Virus record (IMG/VR): IMGVR_UViG_3300020156_000064
Span: 1-36,358 of that record
Source of the DNA: a virus
DNA length: 36,358 nt
Direction: 5' to 3' (one strand)
Below, in pieces: positions 4,254 to 19,557 of the stretch; the stretch's first letter is position 1; each line of letters starts with the position of its first letter. The notes under the pieces are model-generated. The model did not search any database, had not been told where the DNA came from, and was given only the letters and a program-made list of their open reading frames with translations. Both the position numbers and the translations under genes were made by a program.

Positions 4254-7057
4254 GCGGTCACCTCCGGGTCGGCCGGGCGCAGGGTGCCCGGGGTGCAGCT
4301 GGGGCAGAGCAGGAAGTAAGTCATCTCGGCGTCGGGCACCTTGGCGGTGCCGCAGGTGTCGCAGACCGGCACCGGCAGCTCGGGGGCATCGGCCCGGAAG
4401 ACCTCGAACCAGTCAGCGGGCAGGACCGTCGACTGGGCGACCGGAGGGGTCGGGAGGAGCGCCGGGCGCTCGGCCGGGGCCTCGGGAGCCGCCCCGATGT
4501 GTCCCACCTGCGGGAACAGCCCGTCGGGCTGGGTAGCGGGGGTAACGGGGGTAACCCCGACCGCCCCCGTCTCCTGCGCGCAAAACACTTTTTCCGTGAC
4601 GCGCGGCTCCTGCGCGGAAAAAGAAAATTCCTCCGTAGGTGCATTGGTGTTCTGGTTACCCCCGTTACCCCCGTCGCCAGCGGCAGAATCGGGCGAACTC
4701 GGGATGGGGTCGGACGTAGCGGGCACGGGGCCGCCGTCCGGCCGGGTGCGCACCGCGTAGGTGTTCACGTTGCCGTGCGACTTGCCGAGGGCGACCAGCT
4801 GGACCTCGCCGAACCAGCGGTCGAGGTTGCCCGCGTACTCCTGGCCCAGCTGGCGGTTGTACGCGCGGGCGTCGGTGCCAGACAGGTCGGTCATGCCGGG
4901 CGGGGTCTCGCTGTGGGGGTCCTTCAGCATGGCGTCGCGCGCCTGGGCGACCGTGAACGCCTGGCCGTCGCCGAAGGTCTTCAGCAGCCACTCGACGTGG
5001 CGCGTCCAGTAGGTGAGGCTGAACGACGACTGCGACCGCCACTCGGTCATGTTGCCCAGGAAGCCCGCGATGCCCGCGTGCGCCAGGATGCCGCCCAGCA
5101 CGCGCTCCCAGGACTCGAAGGAGCCGAAGCTGACCGCCTTCGGGGCCTTCGGCTGGCCCGCGGCGAACCAGGACCGGACCAGGGTCAGCAGGGCCTCGAC
5201 GATCGCCGGCCGGTTGTCCAGGGTCCACTGACGGAGGTCGGCGTGCATGAAGTCGTCGGCCGTGCGGTCCTGCGGGTTCTTGCCCGTCGGCCGGATGGCG
5301 ATCCGGTAGACCCGGCGCACGATGTCGCCCTCGACCCGGACGCCGTTGCCCAGGCTGACCCAGGTGACCTTGTTCGGGAACTCCAGCATCTGGTTGATGC
5401 CGAGCTGGCGGTCGCTCCAGGTCTCCGAGGTCAGCGCGCGGGCCAGGCTGGCCCCGTGGAGATGGTGCGCCTCGTCGAAGACGAAGATGTCGCCGCCCTG
5501 GCGGAACGTCGCCGTGATGACCTTCCGGTTCTCCTGGTCGTCCAGCGACCAGGGCATCGGGTCGACGGTCTGCCCGGTGGCGACGATCGCCATCATGTCG
5601 GCCAGGTAGTTCTTGCCGACGCCCATCTGGAGGCCGTCGACCACCGCCAGCGGGGCCGTGCGGACCATGCCCCGGACGAACGGCGTCAGGATCATGGCGA
5701 GCGCGTTGGCCCGGTCGGCGTCGGTCGGCATGTCGCGCAGCAGGTCGGCAATCCAGCCCTTCGTGATGAAGTCGCGGGCCGCGGCGACCTGGGCCTCGGT
5801 GGGCTCGTCGGGCACGTTGATGCGCTGCATCGCGGCATCCATCGTGACCAGCGTCCGGGTCTCGGCGTCGTAGCCGTTGACCTGGCAGATGGTGCCGTCG
5901 GGCCGGACGAAGGGCGACCGCACGATGTGGTCCAGCGGCGTGAAGCGGTCGTAGCGGCTCATCACGGCGTCGATGGTCTGGCCGTCCGGCCAGGTCCAGC
6001 TGATGCCGATCTGGTTGCCCTCGTTGTCCGTGACGGGCTTGGCGGTGCCCACCGTGTCCTGGACGACATCCAGGAACTTGCCCTTCGGGATCGCCTTCAT
6101 GGCCTTGGCCTCCCGGCCCAGGCGCTTGACCGTGACGACCTCGCTGATCGCCTCGCCGTGGTTGAACAGCCGCCGGCCGTCCCAGCGGTCGAGCAGGTGC
6201 CCGGTCAGCTCGTCGATGACCAGCTTGCGGTCCTGGTCGACCAGGACGATCGGGCGGTCCTCGCCGGTCGAGCTGGTCGCCGCGGTCGCCGGTCCCGACG
6301 ACGCCCCGCGAGTCTTCGGCTTCGGCTTCGGCTTGGCGTCGCAGGGCTTGCTCGGGTGCGCCTGCTCCAGCAGGTTGCCGATGAAGGCCGTCCGCCGGTC
6401 GTCGCGCTTCTTGCCGAGCACGTCGTCCAGGCCGTTCGTGCCGCCCGCGGGCAGCCGGACGTAGGAGACCGCGGTCGCGCCCTCGGCCTTCGCCGCGTTG
6501 CCGAGCTTCACCGCGGCGTCGTAGACATCGCGGTTCGTGGCGACATCGGCGTCCAGGCAGATGTAGACGTGCCGCCCGTCGCAGACCTCCAGGTCGGAGT
6601 CCGGGATGCCCTCGGCCGACCAGTTCCGGCAGCCGCCGACGCCGACGATGGTCAGGTCGTCCGGTGCCCAGCTGGCCGCCGCCAGGCCCTGCTTCGTGCC
6701 CTCGACGATCAGCACGCGCTCGGAGTCCTCGACGATGCGCAGCGCGTTCAGGACCGCGCCGGCCCCCTTCGGGAACAGGTACTTGTAGGTGTCGCCGTTG
6801 CGCTCGAACTCGGCGTCGGGGCGCAGCTGCTCCGTCACCTGGCCGTCGATGGTGATCCACGGGAAGACGATGGAGGGCACCGCGTCCTCGGCCGCCCAGG
6901 CCGCCCACTCGGGCAGCTGGTCGACGCTCGTGATGGAGCGCAGGCCCTTCTCCTTGGCGATGCTGGCCGTGATGGCCGCCGCCTTCAGCTTCTCGACGTG
7001 CTCGGGGGTCAGCGGCAGGCTGTCCCACTCTGCGGCGTCAGTGCCGATCTCAGTCAT
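4250..7057 (-). CDS. bifunctional DNA primase-helicase (Toprim plus DEAH-box P-loop ATPase)
   Basis: This protein is 935 residues from the ATG at 7057. Its N-terminal third carries Toprim features (LIVEGTKQG, then LDADVATN), typical of primases that make RNA primers. A basic, low-complexity linker follows near residues 240-275. The ATPase part has a Walker A MGVGKN (K482) and a Walker B FDEAHH (D528), a replicative helicase type. A long low-complexity tail ends in a zinc ribbon (CDTCG...CPSC). The start codon overlaps the stop of a small upstream frame (ATGA), and its own stop overlaps the polymerase start. The tail coding region at 4537-4673 has an unusually AT-rich core flanked by a perfect 20-bp inverted repeat. 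This may be a cis element embedded in the gene, as the lambda origin is in gene O. Confidence 0.9.
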   Translation of the reverse strand: MTEIGTDAAEWDSLPLTPEHVEKLKAAAITASIAKEKGLRSITSVDQLPEWAAWAAEDAVPSIVFPWITIDGQVTEQLRPDAEFERNGDTYKYLFPKGAGAVLNALRIVEDSERVLIVEGTKQGLAAASWAPDDLTIVGVGGCRNWSAEGIPDSDLEVCDGRHVYICLDADVATNRDVYDAAVKLGNAAKAEGATAVSYVRLPAGGTNGLDDVLGKKRDDRRTAFIGNLLEQAHPSKPCDAKPKPKPKTRGASSGPATAATSSTGEDRPIVLVDQDRKLVIDELTGHLLDRWDGRRLFNHGEAISEVVTVKRLGREAKAMKAIPKGKFLDVVQDTVGTAKPVTDNEGNQIGISWTWPDGQTIDAVMSRYDRFTPLDHIVRSPFVRPDGTICQVNGYDAETRTLVTMDAAMQRINVPDEPTEAQVAAARDFITKGWIADLLRDMPTDADRANALAMILTPFVRGMVRTAPLAVVDGLQMGVGKNYLADMMAIVATGQTVDPMPWSLDDQENRKVITATFRQGGDIFVFDEAHHLHGASLARALTSETWSDRQLGINQMLEFPNKVTWVSLGNGVRVEGDIVRRVYRIAIRPTGKNPQDRTADDFMHADLRQWTLDNRPAIVEALLTLVRSWFAAGQPKAPKAVSFGSFESWERVLGGILAHAGIAGFLGNMTEWRSQSSFSLTYWTRHVEWLLKTFGDGQAFTVAQARDAMLKDPHSETPPGMTDLSGTDARAYNRQLGQEYAGNLDRWFGEVQLVALGKSHGNVNTYAVRTRPDGGPVPATSDPIPSSPDSAAGDGGNGGNQNTNAPTEEFSFSAQEPRVTEKVFCAQETGAVGVTPVTPATQPDGLFPQVGHIGAAPEAPAERPALLPTPPVAQSTVLPADWFEVFRADAPELPVPVCDTCGTAKVPDAEMTYFLLCPSCTPGTLRPADPEVTA
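4537..4673. repeat. 20-bp inverted repeat flanking an AT-rich core inside the primase gene (possible origin)
   Basis: The left arm at 4537-4556 reads CGGGGGTAACGGGGGTAACC, itself a tandem of a 10-base unit. The exact reverse complement is at 4654-4673. Between them lie a 9-bp inverted repeat CTTTTTCCG/CGGAAAAAG (4588-4596 and 4615-4623), a direct repeat CTCCTGCGCG (4571 and 4607) and A/T runs foreign to this GC-rich genome. The encoded residues form a low-complexity linker, so the DNA rather than the protein appears to be constrained. Iterons beside an AT-rich segment suggest a replication origin. Confidence 0.6.
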
Positions 7058-10512: not shown

Positions 10513-12258
10513 ATGCCGCAGCTGACCACCGCCCCCGCCGACATCGCCCCCGCCAAGCTGACCCGGGTCGAGCCGGGGTTCTACCGGCACGAGGCGACCG
10601 GCATCGTGGCCTGGAAGGACGAGGCGATGGGCGACTGGCGCGTCTGCAACGACGAGAACTCGCTGGCCTTCGCCTACGCCCACACGCTCGCCGAGGCCCG
10701 CCGGGTCGTCGCCGCCGAGGTCGCCCGCCGGGACCGCGAGGCCCTGGAGGCCCGCGAGGCGTTCGCCGCCGACCACCCCGAGGCCGTCATCCAGCACGCC
10801 GAGCGCGCCAGCTGCTCGACCCCCGAGCCGGGCTGGTCGTCGCAGTGCCGCGCCATCGGGTGCCCGGGTCACTGGCGCACCGGGCTGGAGACCGAGGCCG
10901 AGGCCCGCGAGGCGTACCTGGCGCACCAGTGCGCGCCGGCCGTCGAGCTGACCGAGCAGCGCGTCGAGGTCAAGAAGCGCCGCACCCGGGTCGAGGTCGT
11001 CGACCTGCTGGCCTGGGCCTGCTTCACCGTCGAGGCCCGGCAGAAGGCCGACGCCCGGCACGAGCGCACCGAGTGGGCGACGCCGAACCTGGTCGAGCGC
11101 CTGGTCGCCGCGGGCTGGGTCCAGGGCTCGGCCGACTACCCCGAGCTGACCGAGGAGGGCTACCGGGTCTACCGGGCCGCCCGCCCGGTCGACCGCGACG
11201 ACGCCGCCGACTTCTCGGCGATCGAGCAGCTGGTCGACGGCTGGTTCGGCCGGGTCGTCGTCATCCCCTGCGGCGGTAAGAAGCTGGACGAGGCCGCCCC
11301 GGCGGGCGAGCTGTACGTCGGCAGCTACCACCGCGCCGCGCGCCGGGCCGCCGACGCCCTGGGCGGTCGGGTGCTGATCCTCTCGGCGCTTCACGGCCTG
11401 GTCGACCTCGACACCGTGCTGGAGCCGTACGACCTGCGCATGGGCCAGCCGGGCTCGGTCGCCCCGGAGCGCCTGGCCGAGCAGGCGGTCGCCCTGGGCG
11501 TCGCCGACAGCCTGAACGTGGCCGTGCTCGCAGGGAAGGCGTACGCCGACGCCGCCAGCTCGGTCTGGCCGCACGCGGTCCGGCCGCTGGACGGTACCCG
11601 CGGCATGGGCGAGCAGCTGGCCCGCCTGGCCGCCATCGCGGCCGAGGCCCCGTCGCCCTCGCAGAAGGCCATCGGCCAGGCGCAGATCGGGGCCTGGCTG
11701 GACCGGCACGACATCGCCATCCGGGAGATGACCGAGGCCGAGGCGACCCGGGTGGCCGCGGCCTACCACGCGGCCATCGAGGCCGACCGCGACGCCGCGC
11801 TGCTGGAAGACGCCGACCGGGCCGCCGGCCGCCTGCTCGACGAGGTGCTCGGGGCCGACAGCCCGGCCAGCCTGCGCGACAGCTTCGAGACCCTGGCCGC
11901 GGCCCGGGACGCCGAGACCGACGAGGAGCGCCGCAACCAGCTGGCCGCCGCGCTGGGCCTGGCCTACGACCGCATGGTCCTGGCCGAGCGCTTCGGGGTC
12001 GACACGACCGGCTGGAGCGCCGAGGCGATCAGCCAGCGGTTCGCCCAGGAGGTCGCCGCCGACAATCGCCGGGTCGTCCAGGAGGCCCAGGAGGCCGCCG
12101 ACGCCGAGCTGCGCCGGGTCGTCTTCGAGCTGATCGAGACCGGCGGGGCGTGCCAGTACGGGGCGATGTGCGGCCGACCGGCGGCCAAGGCGCTGACGCA
12201 CCCGGTGCTCGGCCTGCTGGCCGCCTGCGAGGGCTGCGCCCGCATCGCGTCCAGGTGA
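10513..12258 (+). CDS. DUF6884-like protein with zinc-knuckle ends
   Basis: This 581-residue protein is the first of the rightward segment. The middle (about residues 247-375) has the pattern IPCGGKK (C253-K257), then ELYVGSYHRA, LSALHGLVD and LEPYDLRMG. I associate this pattern with DUF6884-type domains of actinobacteria and their phages. The order (Cys-Lys motif, SALHGL, PYD) also recalls the core domain of archaeosine synthase ArcS, a link that is only my inference. A cysteine cluster lies near residues 100-120 (SSQCRAIGCPGHW), and the C-terminus has a CxxxxxC...CxxC zinc-ribbon pattern. The rest is Ala/Glu/Arg-rich helix. A biochemical role is not established. The ATG at 10513 has AAGGAG 7 bases upstream. 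Confidence 0.75.
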   Translation: MPQLTTAPADIAPAKLTRVEPGFYRHEATGIVAWKDEAMGDWRVCNDENSLAFAYAHTLAEARRVVAAEVARRDREALEAREAFAADHPEAVIQHAERASCSTPEPGWSSQCRAIGCPGHWRTGLETEAEAREAYLAHQCAPAVELTEQRVEVKKRRTRVEVVDLLAWACFTVEARQKADARHERTEWATPNLVERLVAAGWVQGSADYPELTEEGYRVYRAARPVDRDDAADFSAIEQLVDGWFGRVVVIPCGGKKLDEAAPAGELYVGSYHRAARRAADALGGRVLILSALHGLVDLDTVLEPYDLRMGQPGSVAPERLAEQAVALGVADSLNVAVLAGKAYADAASSVWPHAVRPLDGTRGMGEQLARLAAIAAEAPSPSQKAIGQAQIGAWLDRHDIAIREMTEAEATRVAAAYHAAIEADRDAALLEDADRAAGRLLDEVLGADSPASLRDSFETLAAARDAETDEERRNQLAAALGLAYDRMVLAERFGVDTTGWSAEAISQRFAQEVAADNRRVVQEAQEAADAELRRVVFELIETGGACQYGAMCGRPAAKALTHPVLGLLAACEGCARIASR

Positions 12259-12887: not shown

Positions 12888-13679
12888 GTGACTCCGCTCT
12901 GCCTGCGGTGCGGCGCGCGCCGCCCGAACCCCGTCTGTAGCTGCTCGAAGGAGAAGACCATGAAGCGCACCACGCGCTCGGCCGTGAAGGCCATCTGCAT
13001 CGGCGGGGCCGTCGGCCTCGTGTTCAACCTGCTGTCGGCCTTCAGCGCCGGGGCCTGGTCGGTCGTCTGGGGCCTGATCGGCATCGCTGGCGGGGTCGTC
13101 TTCGCCATCGGCCTGCTCTACCTGGTCGCCTCGCTGGGCCGCCGGGGCGGTCGGGCCTCGAAGCCGAAGCGCCGGCCGAGCTTCCTGCGCCGGGTCGCCG
13201 ATGCCGGATACCGGCCCTGGCTGGTCGCTGGCGCGTCGGCCTTCTACGGATACCTGGCCTGGCTCCAGCTCGTCGAGGCCATGACCGCGGTCATCGCGCA
13301 GGACCCGAACCGTGCCGCCGCCCAGCTGATCTGGGGCGTCGTCCTGCTCTGGCTCGTGAAGGTCTTCGCCGGGCTGACCATCGACGCCGCCAGCTCGAAC
13401 CGGAAGGCCGCCCGGGACCGGCGGATCGACGCTCGCGCCGAGGAGCTGGCCCGCGGGCCGATGGAGGCCAGCGAGCTGCGCGCCCTGGCCGACGCCGCCA
13501 CCGACGCCCGCGACTGGGAGGAGGCCGCCGCGCTGCTGGAGGCCGCGGGCCGGGTCATGCGCCGGGACGCCGAGCGTCGGCACGACGAGGCGATCGCCTT
13601 CCTGCGGGAGACGAACGAGCGCGCCCGCGCTGACCTCGACCGCATCCGGCTGGGCCGTCTGAACGAGGGGGCGTACTGA
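12888..13679 (+). CDS. polytopic membrane protein with optional N-terminal zinc knuckle
   Basis: From GTG 12888 the product has 263 residues. From ATG 12961, in the same frame, it has 239. Both starts have good ribosome-binding sites (GGGGGAG and GAAGGAG). The longer form adds CLRCG...CSCS, a likely zinc knuckle. The body has about four membrane helices (two near the N-terminus of the short form, two more near its residues 82-100 and 118-140). A basic segment lies between the helix pairs, and the cytoplasmic C-terminal 90 residues form a helical, highly charged region. It resembles in general form the Spd membrane proteins that accompany TraB on Streptomyces plasmids, a structural analogy rather than an identified homology. 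Its stop overlaps the next start (TGATG). Confidence 0.7.
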   Translation: MTPLCLRCGARRPNPVCSCSKEKTMKRTTRSAVKAICIGGAVGLVFNLLSAFSAGAWSVVWGLIGIAGGVVFAIGLLYLVASLGRRGGRASKPKRRPSFLRRVADAGYRPWLVAGASAFYGYLAWLQLVEAMTAVIAQDPNRAAAQLIWGVVLLWLVKVFAGLTIDAASSNRKAARDRRIDARAEELARGPMEASELRALADAATDARDWEEAAALLEAAGRVMRRDAERRHDEAIAFLRETNERARADLDRIRLGRLNEGAY

Positions 13680-14725
13680 TGGAGACCCTGCTGAAGCTGG
13701 CCCAGGATCACCTGGCCCTCGTGATCGGCGGGGCGGTCGCCGCCCTCCTGGTCGTCGTGCTCGTCACCCGGGCGGTCGCCAAGGCCGCCAGGAAGGCCGA
13801 CGAGCCCCTGGCGAACGTCGCCATGCTGCTCGGCCTGGGCTGGTCGTCCGAGGCCGTCTGGGAGCTGTCGGAGGGCCTGCCGACCGGCCTGCGCATCGCC
13901 ATCTTCTCCGTGCTGGAGGTCATCCTCCTGGTCTCGATGGTGCGCACGAAGCGCGCTGTGGAGGAGCTGGGTCGCGCCGGCCGCGCGGGCCGGACCGTCT
14001 GGGTCGTCGCCTCGGTCATGGCTGTGGTCGGCATCTTCGCCGCCGACGGGCTCGGCGAGGGCGCTCTGCGCGCCGCGGTGCCCCTGCTGCTGACCCTCAC
14101 CTGGTGGCAGGGCGTCGTCCCGGAGGGCCTGAAGCGCGCCGACGGGGCGGTCTCCTGGCGGTGGACCCCGCGGCGGCTCCTGCTCGCCCTGGGGGCCATC
14201 GAGCCGGGCGAGCGCGACATCGAGACGGTCAACCGGGAGCGCCTGACCCAGCAGCTGACGCGGCTGGAGTTTGGCCGCCAGCACGGCCTCGGCTGGCTGG
14301 CCCCGGTGCGCAAGGCGCGGCTGATGCGCCTGTCGCTCCACGCCGACGACGACATGATCGCCGAGGTGCGTCAGCGGGTGGCGCGCGCCAGCTGGTTCAC
14401 CGTGACGCAGCTGCGTCAGGTCGGTGGCGCACCGCTGACGCAGGCCGATGACGCACCTGCGACGCAGGGCCTCGTCGTGCCGACGCGGCGCGTCACCCGG
14501 GAGCTGACGCGGCCTCTGACCAGCAGTGACGCGGCTGGCGCAGACCCCGCGGCGCGCGCCGCCAGCCTGGTCGTGACGCAGGGCATGGCGGTGCGCGAGG
14601 CCGCCCGGGAGACCGGGGCCGCCGAGGCGACGGTGCGTCGCCGCGTCAAGGAGATGACGCAGCCTGACGCGACGCAGGCGACGCAGAAGACGAACGGGCA
14701 CCCGGTCCTGGCCGCCGGCCAGTGA
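13679..14725 (+). CDS. membrane protein with C-terminal helix-turn-helix
   Basis: This 348-residue protein has membrane helices at about residues 12-32, 70-87, 104-122 and 130-143, and a basic cytoplasmic domain with WTPRRLLLALGAI. The C-terminus contains a helix-turn-helix-like segment VREAARETGAAEATVRRRVKE. A membrane anchor plus a DNA-binding end suits a protein that ties plasmid or phage DNA to the envelope during transfer. That is inference. Its last 150 codons carry an extraordinary density of TGACGCAG-like repeats, giving repeated Thr-Gln dipeptides (VTQ, LTQ, ATQ, MTQ). The repeats continue past the stop, so the DNA itself is likely selected. The start is fixed by the TGATG overlap. 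Confidence 0.72.
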   Translation: METLLKLAQDHLALVIGGAVAALLVVVLVTRAVAKAARKADEPLANVAMLLGLGWSSEAVWELSEGLPTGLRIAIFSVLEVILLVSMVRTKRAVEELGRAGRAGRTVWVVASVMAVVGIFAADGLGEGALRAAVPLLLTLTWWQGVVPEGLKRADGAVSWRWTPRRLLLALGAIEPGERDIETVNRERLTQQLTRLEFGRQHGLGWLAPVRKARLMRLSLHADDDMIAEVRQRVARASWFTVTQLRQVGGAPLTQADDAPATQGLVVPTRRVTRELTRPLTSSDAAGADPAARAASLVVTQGMAVREAARETGAAEATVRRRVKEMTQPDATQATQKTNGHPVLAAGQ

Positions 14726-14775
14726 CGCACCGCCCGACGCAGTAGACGAAGGAGACCCAGGAGACCATGACGCAA
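14256..14775. repeat. cluster of about 18 [T/C]GACGC[A/G] octamer repeats, candidate transfer or replication site
   Basis: TGACGCAG or a one-to-two-base variant occurs on the plus strand at 14403, 14436, 14449, 14460, 14481, 14505, 14527, 14574, 14655, 14665, 14670, 14679, 14723, 14735 and 14768, with an outlier at 14256. Reverse-strand copies are at 14367, 14411, 14488 and 14641. TGACGCAGCTGCGTCA at 14403-14418 is a perfect 16-bp palindrome. The cluster spans the 3' end of one gene, the intergenic gap and the first codons of the next. Confidence 0.7.
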
Positions 14776-15153
14776 CGACGACGCCGCACGCCGCGCGACC
14801 CCCGGTTCGCCGACTACCCGGATGACTTCCTGGCCTGTCGCGTCGACCGGCACGACCTCCCCGGGATCATGACCCCCGACGAGGCCCAGCGGTGGCGCTA
14901 CCCGGACGCCGACGTGCTGGCGACCCGGCGCAAGTGCCGACGGTGCGGAGCCGTCGAGGTGCGCCTGACGAACGAGCTGGACGGGACGCTCTACCGGCCG
15001 ACCCGGTACGACTACCCGGAGGGCTACCTGCTCCGGGCTCCCGAGGGGGTCGAGGGGCCGACGCCCCGGCCGGTCGCCCGGCTGGAGCAGGTGCGGCGCT
15101 TCCTGGACCGCAACCCGACGCCCCAGCGGCGCTTCCTTGCGCCGGGCCAGTAG
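14767..15153 (+). CDS. hypothetical basic protein with zinc-finger-like cysteines
   Basis: This 128-residue protein has an Arg-rich N-terminus (MTQRRRRTPRD), a CRVDRHD motif near residue 24 and a CRRCG knuckle near 58. Together they could form a Cys/His zinc site. Tyr/Arg-rich and Pro-rich segments follow (RPTRYDYPEGY). Similar small zinc-knuckle proteins are common in actinobacterial mobile elements, but I cannot name a family. Two ribosome-binding-like sequences precede ATG 14767. Its first codons belong to the TGACGCA repeat cluster, and promoter P3 overlaps its 3' end. Confidence 0.65.
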   Translation: MTQRRRRTPRDPRFADYPDDFLACRVDRHDLPGIMTPDEAQRWRYPDADVLATRRKCRRCGAVEVRLTNELDGTLYRPTRYDYPEGYLLRAPEGVEGPTPRPVARLEQVRRFLDRNPTPQRRFLAPGQ

Positions 15154-15482: not shown

Positions 15483-15712
15483 TCGGCAACGTCGTCGCCC
15501 GCCTGTCGTTCGCCGCCGCCGCGGCGCTGCTGGGCCTGTCGCTCCAGCTCGCCTGGACCGGCTGGTTCGACAGCCCCGAGGGCCGCCCGGTCGTCAAGGT
15601 CGTGACCGACCACGCGCACTACGAATCGGACAAGGCCGAGGATGGCTCGCGCTGGGTCACCTGCTTCTCGGCCCAGCGTTGCACCGAGCTGAACGGCAGG
15701 CCGCGCCAGTGA
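15479..15712 (+). CDS. small exported or membrane-anchored protein
   Basis: This 77-residue protein has an N-terminal hydrophobic segment (residues 4-26) that could be a signal peptide or anchor. An extracytoplasmic domain follows, with two cysteines (TCFSAQRC, near residues 61-68) that could form a disulphide. Start and stop both overlap neighbours (ATGA, then GTGA), so it is tightly coupled within the operon. I do not recognise a family. It is the only clearly export-prone protein in this segment and might face the cell wall or a partner cell. Confidence 0.6.
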   Translation: MIGNVVARLSFAAAAALLGLSLQLAWTGWFDSPEGRPVVKVVTDHAHYESDKAEDGSRWVTCFSAQRCTELNGRPRQ

Positions 15713-16188
15713 ACACGACTACGGGCGGTAACTCTCAAGTCTCTACTGGAGACCTGGAGCAGACCCCCCTGGAGCGCGAAACGGCCCCTGAACTCTCTAC
15801 TCGGGGCGAAAGTCTCCAGCGGTCTCTAGTCACTCTCCGTGCCCGGCTCCTGGGGGCGCTCGCGCGCTCCCGGGGCTACTGGATGCCGCCGCGGCTCCTG
15901 ACCGACCGGCCGGAATCGGTCGCCGAGCTGGCCGCGTACGCGCGTCGCGGGGGCTACGCGGCCCCGCACGGCGTCGGCCGTCGCCTCGGCCTCGCCTGGT
16001 TCTACGTCGTCGCTCTGCCGACGACCGTCGTCTGCCGATACGTGGCCTGGTTCGCCGAGCGCCCCGGGCGCTGGCTGGCCGCGGCCTTCATCTGGCAGAC
16101 CGTCATCCGGTCGGAGCCCGGCATCTGGGCCGTCGACCACATCGTCCGTCCGGTCCTGGCCGCCGCGGCCTGGGCCTTCCTTCCCTGA
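15709..16188 (+). CDS. membrane protein with unusual N-terminal coding sequence
   Basis: This protein is 159 residues from GTG 15709, which overlaps the preceding stop. Residues 1-43 are Ser/Thr/Glu-rich and encoded with rarely used codons (TCT, ACT, CAA, CTA, AGT), in sharp contrast to the neighbours. This stretch carries the ACTCTC/GTCTC motif cluster. The rest is basic, with hydrophobic helices near 93-115 and 143-158. Function is unknown. Membrane location and operon context link it to the translocase group. Confidence 0.65.
   Translation: MNTTTGGNSQVSTGDLEQTPLERETAPELSTRGESLQRSLVTLRARLLGALARSRGYWMPPRLLTDRPESVAELAAYARRGGYAAPHGVGRRLGLAWFYVVALPTTVVCRYVAWFAERPGRWLAAAFIWQTVIRSEPGIWAVDHIVRPVLAAAAWAFLP
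15731..15837. repeat. cluster of ACTCTC and GTCTC motifs
   Basis: ACTCTC occurs at 15731, 15792 and 15832. GTCTC occurs at 15739, 15812 and 15822, the first in a dyad GTCTC-tactg-GAGAC. The stretch is visibly poorer in GC than its surroundings. It may be a protein-binding array overlapping the coding sequence. Confidence 0.45.
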
Positions 16189-16200
16189 GAGGAGCCCGGC

Positions 16201-16668
16201 ATGGGTAGGGGATCAGGTTCTGGCCTGCGGGCCATGCATCAGAAGTCGGTCAAGGGGCTGGCCTGGGCCAGCTTCGTCATCGCGCTGGCGTGCGGGGCGC
16301 TGCTGCCCGGCACGTTCGTCGGCGAATGGGTCGTGACGGTCCTGGGCTGGCTGCCCTGGGGCGCGACCATCCCGGTCATCGTGCTCATCGTCGGCTGGGT
16401 CGGTGTCTTCCTGGACACCTACCTGGACCTGGAGCCGAACCAGCTGGCGGTCTGGGGTGCGCTGCTGCTGCCCTCGGTCGCCGGGGCGGTCTCGGGCGGC
16501 ATGGCCGACTGGACCCAGGACATCGCCGACACCGTGCTGGAGGCCGTCGACCAGTCGCTGTTCGCCGCCGCGCCCGAGGGCCTCGGCTCGACCGCGCTGG
16601 CCCTGGCGACCTCGGTGGCCGCGGTGCTCATGGCCCAGCGCGTCGTCAAGAAGGGTCGGCGAGCCTGA
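16201..16668 (+). CDS. polytopic membrane protein
   Basis: This 155-residue protein has about four hydrophobic helices (near 20-40, 48-70, 83-101 and 130-148) and basic ends (KSVKG near the start, VVKKGRRA at the end). An amphipathic stretch, DWTQDIADTVLEAVDQSLF, lies before the last helix. No enzyme motif is seen. Size and four-helix layout are comparable to SpdB2-type pore or channel proteins encoded next to TraB in Streptomyces plasmids, an analogy only. A GAGGAG site lies 8 bases before ATG 16201. Its stop overlaps the next start (TGATG). Confidence 0.68.
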   Translation: MGRGSGSGLRAMHQKSVKGLAWASFVIALACGALLPGTFVGEWVVTVLGWLPWGATIPVIVLIVGWVGVFLDTYLDLEPNQLAVWGALLLPSVAGAVSGGMADWTQDIADTVLEAVDQSLFAAAPEGLGSTALALATSVAAVLMAQRVVKKGRRA

Positions 16669-17447
16669 TGGACGTGTTCAGCTTCCTGCTCGTCGTCTAC
16701 ATGCTGAAGGTGCTGGCCGAAGACACCTGGCACGGCGTCAAGGGCACGCCGAACCCCCGGCACGCCGCCCGGGAGCGCCGCCGGAAGACCAGGGCGCGCT
16801 CGCGCACCTGGGGCGCGCTGACCACCTACTGGGGCGACCTGGTGGAAGACGCCGCGGCAGAGGCCACCGAGCACCGCCGCCGGAAGGCCGAGCGCAAGCG
16901 CCGGGAGCGCGCCGAGCGCGAGGCCGCCGAGCTGGCCGACCCGGCCGCCGCGCCGGCCGAACCCGAGACGCCCGGCCCCGCCGAGGGGGAGGAGCCGGTC
17001 GACCTGGACCTCGACGACCCGAAGGAGGAGACGCCCACCGAACCCATCCCGACCGAGCCGCCGGGCTCCACTTCCCCGGAGCCCGGCCCGACCCCCGACA
17101 ACGTGATCCCTTTCCCGGCCCCCAGGGCCACCGCACCGAAGGAGCAGGACATGGCTACCACTGAAGTCACCGGCCTCGACCCGGCCATCGAGTACGCCAA
17201 GGCGCTCGCGTCCTACGCCGCCGAGCACGCCCAGGCGGGAAACGAGGGCTACATCGGCTTCCTGACCCAGAGCAAGGTCCAGGGCTCGGCGCTCTCCTCG
17301 GCGCACGAGATGCAGGAGGCGTTCGCCGCCGCAGCCGCCGCGGCCGAGCGGCACAAGGGCGAGCTGGAGAAGCAGAAGACCGTCCAGGAGGCGTACAACA
17401 CGAACCCGGACGCTGGCGACAAGGCGTTCCAGCAGAACGGCCAGTGA
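16668..17447 (+). CDS. membrane-anchored coiled-coil protein with a possible internal start for a helical C-terminal domain
   Basis: This 259-residue protein has a short N-terminal hydrophobic helix (residues 3-15), then a very basic Arg/Lys/Glu coiled coil (about 40-90), a long acidic Pro-rich linker (about 90-155) and a C-terminal helical domain of about 98 residues. That last domain begins at an in-frame ATG (17151) with a perfect AAGGAG site 7 bases upstream, so a separate 98-residue protein may also be made. The domain is Ala/Gln/Glu-rich and reads as two helices. The gene directly precedes the translocase and ends before a strong hairpin. A bridging or coupling role is plausible but not shown. 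Confidence 0.7.
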   Translation: MDVFSFLLVVYMLKVLAEDTWHGVKGTPNPRHAARERRRKTRARSRTWGALTTYWGDLVEDAAAEATEHRRRKAERKRRERAEREAAELADPAAAPAEPETPGPAEGEEPVDLDLDDPKEETPTEPIPTEPPGSTSPEPGPTPDNVIPFPAPRATAPKEQDMATTEVTGLDPAIEYAKALASYAAEHAQAGNEGYIGFLTQSKVQGSALSSAHEMQEAFAAAAAAAERHKGELEKQKTVQEAYNTNPDAGDKAFQQNGQ

Positions 17448-17526: not shown

Positions 17527-19557
17527 ATGAAGACGCCGACCGTCGAGAAGCCGACCGCCGCAGCTGCGCCGGCCGCGCCCGCGTTCGTCGGGCCGCCGGT
17601 CGACGGCCTGGAGCAGACCGTGAAGCCCTGGGCCGCGATGGGCGCGCTGTTCGTCGCCGCAGGGGCCGCCCGGGTGGCGATCGTGGCGACCGGCCACGAC
17701 GCCGAGATCGCCTGGGCGACGGCCTCGGCCGCCTTCGTCATCGCGGTGGTCGCCGCCACCGTGTCGAAGCGGCGCTTCATGTCGAAGCGCCTGCGCTCCC
17801 GGTTCACCGCGGCGCTCTACCTCGGGGCCACCTGGGTCGCCGGGGTGGCGCACCTCGGCATGAGCTGGGGCGCGGTCGCCGTGCTGACGATCGTCGGGGC
17901 GTCGCTGTCGCTGGCCTTCTGGTCGGAGCACCCGGTCGGCGTCGCCGACGAGGGCGTGCGCCTGGTCGACGACCCCGACATCTACGTCGAGCGCTGGGCG
18001 CGCAACCTGGGGGCCAAGGGCAAGAGCCTGGTCGGCTCGCGCCTGCTCCCGAACCCCGAGCGCATCCGGGCCGGGTACCGCTACACGCTGGAGCTGGTGC
18101 CGGGCTCGCAGACCATCGCGGGCGTCATCACGCAGCAGGAGCAGCTGCGCGGCGGCCTGCGCCTGAAGCGCGGCCAGGAGGTCATCGTCGAGGAGCACCC
18201 GGACGAGCCCGCCCCGACGGCCCTCGTGACCATCGTCGAGCAGTCGCCGGTCAAGCAGTCGCGCCCCTGGCCCGGTGCCGCGGCGGCCTTCGACGCCAGC
18301 GCGGGCTCGGTCAACCTGGGGCCGTTCGTCGATGACGAGGGCACCGCGCGCTGGTCGGTCTACCAGAAGAACGGCATCTTCGGCGGCTTCATGCAGGGTG
18401 ACCCGGGCTCGGGTAAGAGCCGCATGTTCGAGTCGATCGCCATGTCGGTCGCGTCCAGCGAGACGCACCCGACGGTCGTCTGGTTCGCCTGCGGCCAGGG
18501 GGGCGCGTCGTCGCCCATGCTCGTCGAGCACGCCGACTGGTCGGCGACGACGATCGAGGATTTCCACGAGATGCTGACCGCCGCGTGCAACCTGTACGTC
18601 TGGCAGTCGAAGCAGAACAGGCACCTCGGGCTCCCGGGCTTCACCCCGATGGACTCCCGGCCGGGCCTGGTCATCTTCGTCGACGAGCTTCACGGCCTGG
18701 TCGACCCGAACGAGCACGCCATCCTCGGCCCTGCGAACGCGGCCCTGATGCTGCGCATCGCCCGGGAGGCGCGCAAGGCCGGGGTGGCGATCATCGCGGC
18801 CGACCAGTCGCCGACGCTCGACGCCTTCGGCGGCTCGGGCAACGGGATGCAGACCCTGCGCTCGGCCCTGCTGAACGGCAACGGCGTGCTGCTCCGCTCG
18901 GAGAACAACAACGCCAAGCAGGTGTTCAAGGTCGACATCGACCCCCGTGCGTTCCCGAAGCTGCCCGGCTACGCCTGGCTGGCCCGGCCCGCCGAGGGAG
19001 AGCGGTCGGCCCCGTTCCGGGGCTACTTCGTGAACGACGAGCAGATCGCCGTCGAGCCGAAGCGCTTCGCCTGGCGGTCGCTGACGCCGAAGCAGACGAA
19101 CCTGACCGGCTCGGATGCCTACGCCCGGCGGCACGAGGTCGCCGCCGAGCGCGCCGAGGCGCTCGCCCTGGAGCTGGAGCTGGCCGAGGCCGGGATGCTC
19201 GGCACGCTGGAGCAGCTGGGCGCGCAGATGGACGCCGCGGCGCTGGCCCGCACCGAGGCCGCCAAGGCCGACGTGCAGCTCGACTTCGCCGACGGAATCC
19301 CGCCGGTCCGGCCCGTGCCGCGCTTCTGGCTGACCGCCGGGGCGCGCGCCGAGGCCCAGCCCATGACGCCCGCCGAGACGAAGGTGCTCCAGGCGCTCGC
19401 CCGGGGCGGCTCGATGAAGGTCGGGGCGATCGCCGAGGCCGCGGGCATCAGCCCGCAGGGGGCCGACGGGGCGCTGAAGCGCCTGGCGGCCCGGGGCATG
19501 GTGCGCCAGCCCCAGAAGTACGGACCGTACGAACTGACCGCCGCGCACGCGGCCTGA
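17527..19557 (+). CDS. TraB/FtsK-like DNA translocase with four TM helices and C-terminal winged helix
   Basis: This 676-residue protein begins with an Ala/Pro-rich N-terminus and four membrane helices (about 35-55, 61-80, 94-110 and 113-132). A linker domain of about 150 residues leads to a P-loop ATPase with Walker A GDPGSGKS (291-298, K297) and Walker B LVIFVDELHG (D386, E387). It ends in a winged helix (about 613-670) like the FtsK gamma domain. TraB proteins of Streptomyces conjugative plasmids share this plan: a membrane-anchored hexameric pump moves double-stranded DNA and its winged helix reads short repeats. A chromosome-segregation FtsK would be longer, with the same order. HerA-type or packaging ATPases lack this winged-helix end. 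The start has AGGAGGG 7 bases upstream. All key residues are intact. Confidence 0.85.
   Translation: MKTPTVEKPTAAAAPAAPAFVGPPVDGLEQTVKPWAAMGALFVAAGAARVAIVATGHDAEIAWATASAAFVIAVVAATVSKRRFMSKRLRSRFTAALYLGATWVAGVAHLGMSWGAVAVLTIVGASLSLAFWSEHPVGVADEGVRLVDDPDIYVERWARNLGAKGKSLVGSRLLPNPERIRAGYRYTLELVPGSQTIAGVITQQEQLRGGLRLKRGQEVIVEEHPDEPAPTALVTIVEQSPVKQSRPWPGAAAAFDASAGSVNLGPFVDDEGTARWSVYQKNGIFGGFMQGDPGSGKSRMFESIAMSVASSETHPTVVWFACGQGGASSPMLVEHADWSATTIEDFHEMLTAACNLYVWQSKQNRHLGLPGFTPMDSRPGLVIFVDELHGLVDPNEHAILGPANAALMLRIAREARKAGVAIIAADQSPTLDAFGGSGNGMQTLRSALLNGNGVLLRSENNNAKQVFKVDIDPRAFPKLPGYAWLARPAEGERSAPFRGYFVNDEQIAVEPKRFAWRSLTPKQTNLTGSDAYARRHEVAAERAEALALELELAEAGMLGTLEQLGAQMDAAALARTEAAKADVQLDFADGIPPVRPVPRFWLTAGARAEAQPMTPAETKVLQALARGGSMKVGAIAEAAGISPQGADGALKRLAARGMVRQPQKYGPYELTAAHAA

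Follow-up and report, generated by a model that had tools for sequence, protein, structure and literature searches.

The phage and its TraB-type module

The stretch of DNA analysed here, called the window below, comprises positions 1 to 36,358 of IMG/VR record IMGVR_UViG_3300020156_000064, a virus record that is probably incomplete. Its gene content identifies it as a tailed phage with a conjugation module of the TraB type known from Streptomyces. Structural, lysis and replication genes are all present: PHROGs matches include portal, head protease, major capsid protein, tape measure and endolysin, together with DNA polymerase, primase and exonuclease, and the capsid protein reaches at most 48% identity to mycobacteriophages. 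No Rfam or tRNA feature was found in the window. The TraB-type module is encoded on the + strand, with replication genes on one side and structural genes on the other; the + strand region to which it belongs begins with the gene of a 581-amino-acid protein with a DUF6884 domain (10513-12258, E 8e-22). On the minus strand, the 3' part of the primase-polymerase gene carries a strongly clustered group of GGGGGTAACGGGGGTAACCCC and its inverted partner GGTTACCCCCGTTACCCCC, with four copies in about 135 bases (4535-4672).

The gene at the centre of this study (13679-14725, + strand) encodes a membrane protein of 348 amino acids with three to four predicted transmembrane (TM) helices, a low-confidence linker and a C-terminal helix-turn-helix (HTH). 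Its single-sequence model is poor (pLDDT 47) and served only for the helices and the low-confidence linker. The HTH, at about residues 291-326 (14549-14656, + strand), is drawn from weak HTH matches with boundaries set by eye, as in the other loci; from the covariation described below, we propose it as the reader of the repeats. A homologue in viral contig L095 is 28% identical over 332 amino acids (E 2e-19). The protein gave no match to DUF2637 (PF10935) at E<=0.05, and is not counted as a member of that family. Directly upstream is a gene for a predicted membrane protein of 263 amino acids (12888-13679, + strand), a position occupied by a 3-TM gene of similar size in loci L085-L087. Downstream follow, all on the + strand, a gene for a small protein with a Cys motif, CRRCG (14767-15153; phrog_4480, E 5e-6), and three conserved module genes whose products may be Spd-like: one with an uncertain start (15679-16188; 30-42% identity to L094-L099 and L014), one encoding a membrane protein (16201-16668; 31-42% to L014 and L094-L099) and a third at 16668-17447 (29-46% to L094-L099).

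The module also encodes a TraB-type DNA translocase of 676 amino acids (17527-19557, + strand). The NCBIfam profile plasmid_TraB (NF041214) aligns with residues 30-673 over profile positions 8-635 of 639 (E 2e-12), with a score far under the curated cut-off of 800 bits. A Walker A motif is visible in the alignment, and residues 613-663 (19363-19515, + strand) form a MarR-like winged helix (PF12802, E 3e-7). Foldseek searches with a model of modest confidence (pLDDT 57, used only for fold class) returned TcpA and the FtsK motor, and the protein resembles TraB-like proteins of 45 actinobacterial plasmids. With an N-terminal TM region, an FtsK-type motor and a C-terminal winged helix over its full length, it is, as far as profiles and fold class can tell, a full-length, distant TraB. 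The sequence-only reading had placed a translocase with a winged helix in this operon, and the end-to-end profile match bears it out.

A repeat array in the 3' part of a membrane protein gene

The motif [T/C]GACGC[A/G] (YGACGCR) occurs 62 times in the window. Twenty-one of these sites, 16 on the + strand and 5 on the - strand, fall within the 519 bp of 14256-14774, against 41 across the other 35.8 kb or so. The cluster is thus denser than the rest of the sequence, as had been noticed from the letters alone; the earlier count of about 18 copies in 400 bases was slightly low. No other 7-mer of the window is as strongly clustered as TGACGCA (9 copies within 408 bases vs 0.06 expected), all five copies of TGACGCAG in the window belong to the cluster, and the perfect palindrome TGACGCAGCTGCGTCA is present inside it at 14403-14418. 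The sites occupy both strands and more than one reading frame. They cover the 3' part of the membrane protein gene and continue, as claimed, across its stop codon (overlapped by TGACGCA at 14723), the following gap (a site at 14735) and the next start, where ATGACGCAA at 14767 coincides with the start codon of the Cys-motif gene, which lies within the last repeat.

We compared the coding part of the array, which contains 18 sites, with shuffled versions in which the protein was held fixed and synonymous codons were either redrawn or only permuted. Redrawn codons gave a mean of 4.7 sites (maximum 12) and permuted codons a mean of 7.1 (maximum 14); none of 5000 shuffles reached 18. Since synonymous shuffles never reach the observed count, the DNA itself, beyond the protein, is under selection in the array region, in agreement with the sequence-only reading. 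The Thr-Gln bias of the encoded linker is therefore a consequence of this selection, and the earlier suggestion that the repeats force these dipeptides into the protein agrees with the shuffles, the several frames and the two strands alike.

Arrays in other TraB elements

Searches of INPHARED and IMG/VR with single sequences found no relatives, and tblastn with the TraB proteins of the window and of contig L014 gave no match in 50,697 INPHARED phage records. Alignment-based scans did find relatives in IMG/VR, and TraB modules were seen on at least a dozen of its contigs (L014, L094-L104). We assembled about 70 TraB loci from plasmids, genomes and IMG/VR contigs, and sought the strongest clustered 6-8-mer of each locus blind to gene positions. 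About 27 other TraB elements, ten of them viral contigs or plasmid-phages, likewise have an array inside a membrane HTH gene, often reaching over its stop codon, but built from another 6-8-mer. The repeated words include GGTGCCCA (L005, L012), CCTCCG (L014), CGCCAC (L008), CGAACC (L040), GGGACACC (L043), CGTCCCA (L044), CGACCACC (L047), AGTTCCGC (L049), CCGGACCA (L052), CGAGAC (L085-L087) and CCGGTCCG (L092), and in viral contigs TGGTCC (L094), CGCGCA (L095, L097), CCGGAG (L096), CTGCCA (L098), CGTCACC (L099) and GGTTCA (L102). An S. melanogenes plasmid has 12 copies of CGTGAAC at the matching place. Several of the viral contigs are phages rather than miscalled plasmids, since L094, L095 and L097 have a holin or neighbouring phage proteins in common with the window, and L014 has its own terminase, portal, head protease and serine integrase.

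Of 21 loci whose best k-mer cluster had p<=1e-10, 10 had it at the stop of a TM gene, against 1.75 expected (binomial 2e-6), and so had 13 of 29 loci of a larger set, against 2.5 expected (3e-7); inspection added further loci. Among control regions of 13.6 kb, 1 of 20 reached 1e-12, compared with 16 of about 49 TraB loci. Synonymous shuffles in 25 loci gave array-gene counts that reach or exceed at least 999 of 1000 shuffles in 23 of them, values that are optimistic because each motif was picked as the most clustered word of its locus. Between L005 and L012, 56 of 56 motif bases are identical vs 83% outside the motifs; such motif-specific conservation was not seen in the pairs L008/L010 and L026/L027. 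In L096 and in L042, whose record has an apparent frameshift, the domains are permuted to the order HTH-linker-TM, and the repeats are again in the linker.

About half of the TraB loci lack a strong array in the TM gene, and in some (L021/L022, L053) the array is located elsewhere. In L021 (1501-2100) and L022 (1401-2000), 13 copies of CCCGCTCA/CCCGCTC occupy mostly non-coding DNA some 7 kb upstream of traB. L008, L010 and L009 have a second CGCCACC cluster, of the same motif as the array in their TM-HTH gene, between that gene and traB (L008:4785-5232, L010:3805-4285, L009:731-1229). We considered a placement rule by constant distance from traB (upstream zone -4.7 to -3.0 kb, p 2e-5) and dropped it, since in L044 and L049 the TM-HTH gene is downstream of traB and the array follows it there. 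The scans also brought up two pairs of tandem TraB-like frames, each with one full and one partial frame (G469:C1:7175746-7178995, G524:C238:9824-13041), and, on phage contig G001 (about 92.6-93.2 kb; L064:601-1200), eight copies of ATTGCCAC (p 3e-22), located at a primase gene or shortly after it, which are possible replication iterons.

Is the motif conserved in relatives, a check whose failure the sequence-only reading had named as a refutation? Taken literally, the motif sequence is not: the L095 protein is a homologue at the identity given above, and its repeats read CGCGCA. The array itself is conserved, and its retention with a new motif is as expected for an element-specific address.

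The probable reader of the repeats and a candidate transfer address

Two readers had been put forward, the winged helix of TraB and the HTH end of the membrane protein. Across 25 loci, motif similarity tracks similarity of the HTH (Mantel r=0.36, permutation p=0.0002, partial 0.37; r=0.28, p=0.008 in an 18-locus version) and does not follow that of the TraB winged helix (r=-0.05, p=0.75), a result that favours the second candidate and speaks against the first. Individual cases agree with this. L085-L087 have CGAGAC and the HTH sequence GA[DE]LDRxFGTxxYG in common, whereas their TraB recognition helices differ and their TM domains show little similarity by BLAST. L095 and L097 combine a common HTH with CGCGCA, although only L097 has the DUF2637 TM domain (the other DUF2637 matches being L086 and L002), and L040 and L102 have a common HTH type with GGTTC[GA]. 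Conversely, L094, L098 and L099 have a near-identical TraB recognition helix, YSERQ[VI][HY]NLL, yet three motifs. Exceptions exist, as L026/L006 and L091/L006 are alike in HTH but unlike in motif. Moreover, HTH and array are neighbours on the DNA, the array being apart from the gene only in L006 and L103, so that co-inheritance of physically linked sequences could yield part of the covariation. Array position, domain permutation, swaps and covariation together indicate that the repeats are most likely read mainly by the membrane HTH protein.

Known transfer systems offer the closest comparison. Repeats in clt that are bound by TraB or TraA are already known (PMC3583192, PMC4170104, PMC12857230), and their motifs differ between elements, from the 8-bp TRS of pSVH1 to the TGACACC repeats of pWTY27 (PMC3583192). 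The clt loci of pSVH1, pWTY27, pJV1 and pIJ101 resemble the window in being element-specific clusters of short repeats in the transfer region of a TraB-type double-stranded DNA system. However, the reported loci hold about 3-9 repeats in about 50-175 bp, compared with 21 sites over 519 bp here, and they adjoin traA (pWTY27) or lie near korB (pIJ101), whereas the array of the window is inside a membrane HTH gene. The TraB-type proteins of pSVH1 and pWTY27 have themselves been shown to bind clt (PMC3583192), while covariation points to the membrane HTH protein in our case. SpdB2 of pSVH1 and the DUF2637 (PF10935) membrane proteins are similar to this protein in being integral to the membrane, DNA-binding (a prediction for the window protein) and encoded with traB; pSVH1 SpdB2 interacts with TraB, but its reported DNA binding is non-specific (PMC4170104), and the window protein is without a DUF2637 match. 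Actinomycete integrative and conjugative elements of the pSAM2 type also rely on TraB-dependent transfer. No clt has been described for pSAM2, the model integrated element (PMC9513070); elements located on genomes in the present comparison have the array arrangement. Plasmid-phages with tra genes are known as well: pCQ3 and pCQ4 are, like the window, phage genomes with a tra module, in their case traA-traB, and pZL12 is mentioned as another one from Streptomyces. In both pCQ4 and pCQ3 we found 14 copies of CGCATC, a repeat that differs from that of the window, towards the 3' end of a 3-TM HTH gene that lies upstream of traA; their TraB proteins are only about 25% identical to that of the window over half the length. 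The papers searched held no report of an array for pCQ3 or pCQ4.

The reading that we favour, at a probability of roughly 60%, is that the array is a clt-type address, read mainly by the self-encoded membrane HTH protein, which would present the element to the TraB pore. The membrane protein would bind the repeats through its HTH, the repeats lying in turn within the DNA that encodes its own linker, HTH and tail. Because of this location, protein and site would be passed on as a pair and remain matched. Bound in many copies along some 500 bp, the membrane-anchored protein could then keep the element, excised or episomal, at the membrane; there a hexamer of TraB might assemble and pump double-stranded DNA to a neighbouring cell or through the mycelium, possibly assisted by the small Spd-like proteins. 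Binding, anchoring, hand-over to TraB and a role in transfer are what we infer from these sequence comparisons. The earlier suggestion of a clt/TRS-like or origin site is thus retained in its first half, given the TraB module and the arrays at the corresponding place in many TraB elements; the alternative of a replication origin with iterons gained no support.

How do other explanations compare? The array could be a classical clt, with TRS-type repeats that TraB itself recognises through its winged helix and whose placement in the membrane protein gene is incidental. The homology of the translocase to TraB, the binding of repeated clt motifs by TraB/TraA in pSVH1 and pWTY27 (PMC3583192) and the resemblance of pWTY27 TGACACC to TGACGCA all suit this idea, but the motifs do not track the winged helix, the recognition helices of L094, L098 and L099 are alike where their motifs are not, and the array goes with the TM-HTH gene even downstream of traB; we regard it as unlikely. 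The main functional rival, which we hold to be rather unlikely, is a partition role, in which the HTH protein on its array would fix the position of an episomal prophage for inheritance, conjugation not being the purpose. A membrane HTH protein with a repeat array does resemble a centromere with its binding protein, and spdA2/sps of pIJ101 influences stability but leaves transfer unaffected (PMC4170104). However, the arrangement recurs beside traB, including in the chromosomally integrated L040 and L086, and nothing ParA-like was noticed among the module genes.

An operator array regulating transcription of the downstream module genes appears highly improbable: the HTH could belong to a regulator and some sites do lie between the membrane protein gene and the next, but 10-30 copies towards the 3' end of a gene and few at a promoter would be unusual, and the domain-permuted cases retain the array in their linker codons. 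Finally, a low-complexity linker with repeated dipeptides might by itself produce repeated DNA. Peptide repeats do accompany arrays (TQ in the window, NDH in L047, SPE in L096), yet the chance that they explain them is close to negligible in view of the synonymous shuffles of the window and of the 25 loci, the sites on both strands and in several frames, the continuation of the array beyond the stop codon and the conservation specific to motif bases in L005/L012.

Arrays inside a membrane HTH gene, their recurrence and the covariation of motif and HTH were not found in the open-access papers searched. A more general proposition, to which we give about even odds, is that TraB elements, phages included, carry a self-addressed membrane anchor, an HTH protein with its binding sites arrayed in the linker or tail codons of its gene, and that HTH and array evolve or are swapped as one cassette; each element would then have a private address, the code from HTH to motif would be readable, and the TraB winged helix would be minor in recognition. 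The natural swaps between L095 and L097 and among L085-L087 are ready-made tests of specificity. The way in which TraB systems choose their own DNA has been worked out in just a few small plasmids, and the rule of looking in the linker or tail codons of the membrane HTH gene would predict the address of many elements from sequence. It also suggests what DUF2637-type membrane proteins, a family of unknown function in Pfam, may do. TraB modules with element-specific sites occur in several phage lineages, and such phages might therefore spread by conjugation besides virions.
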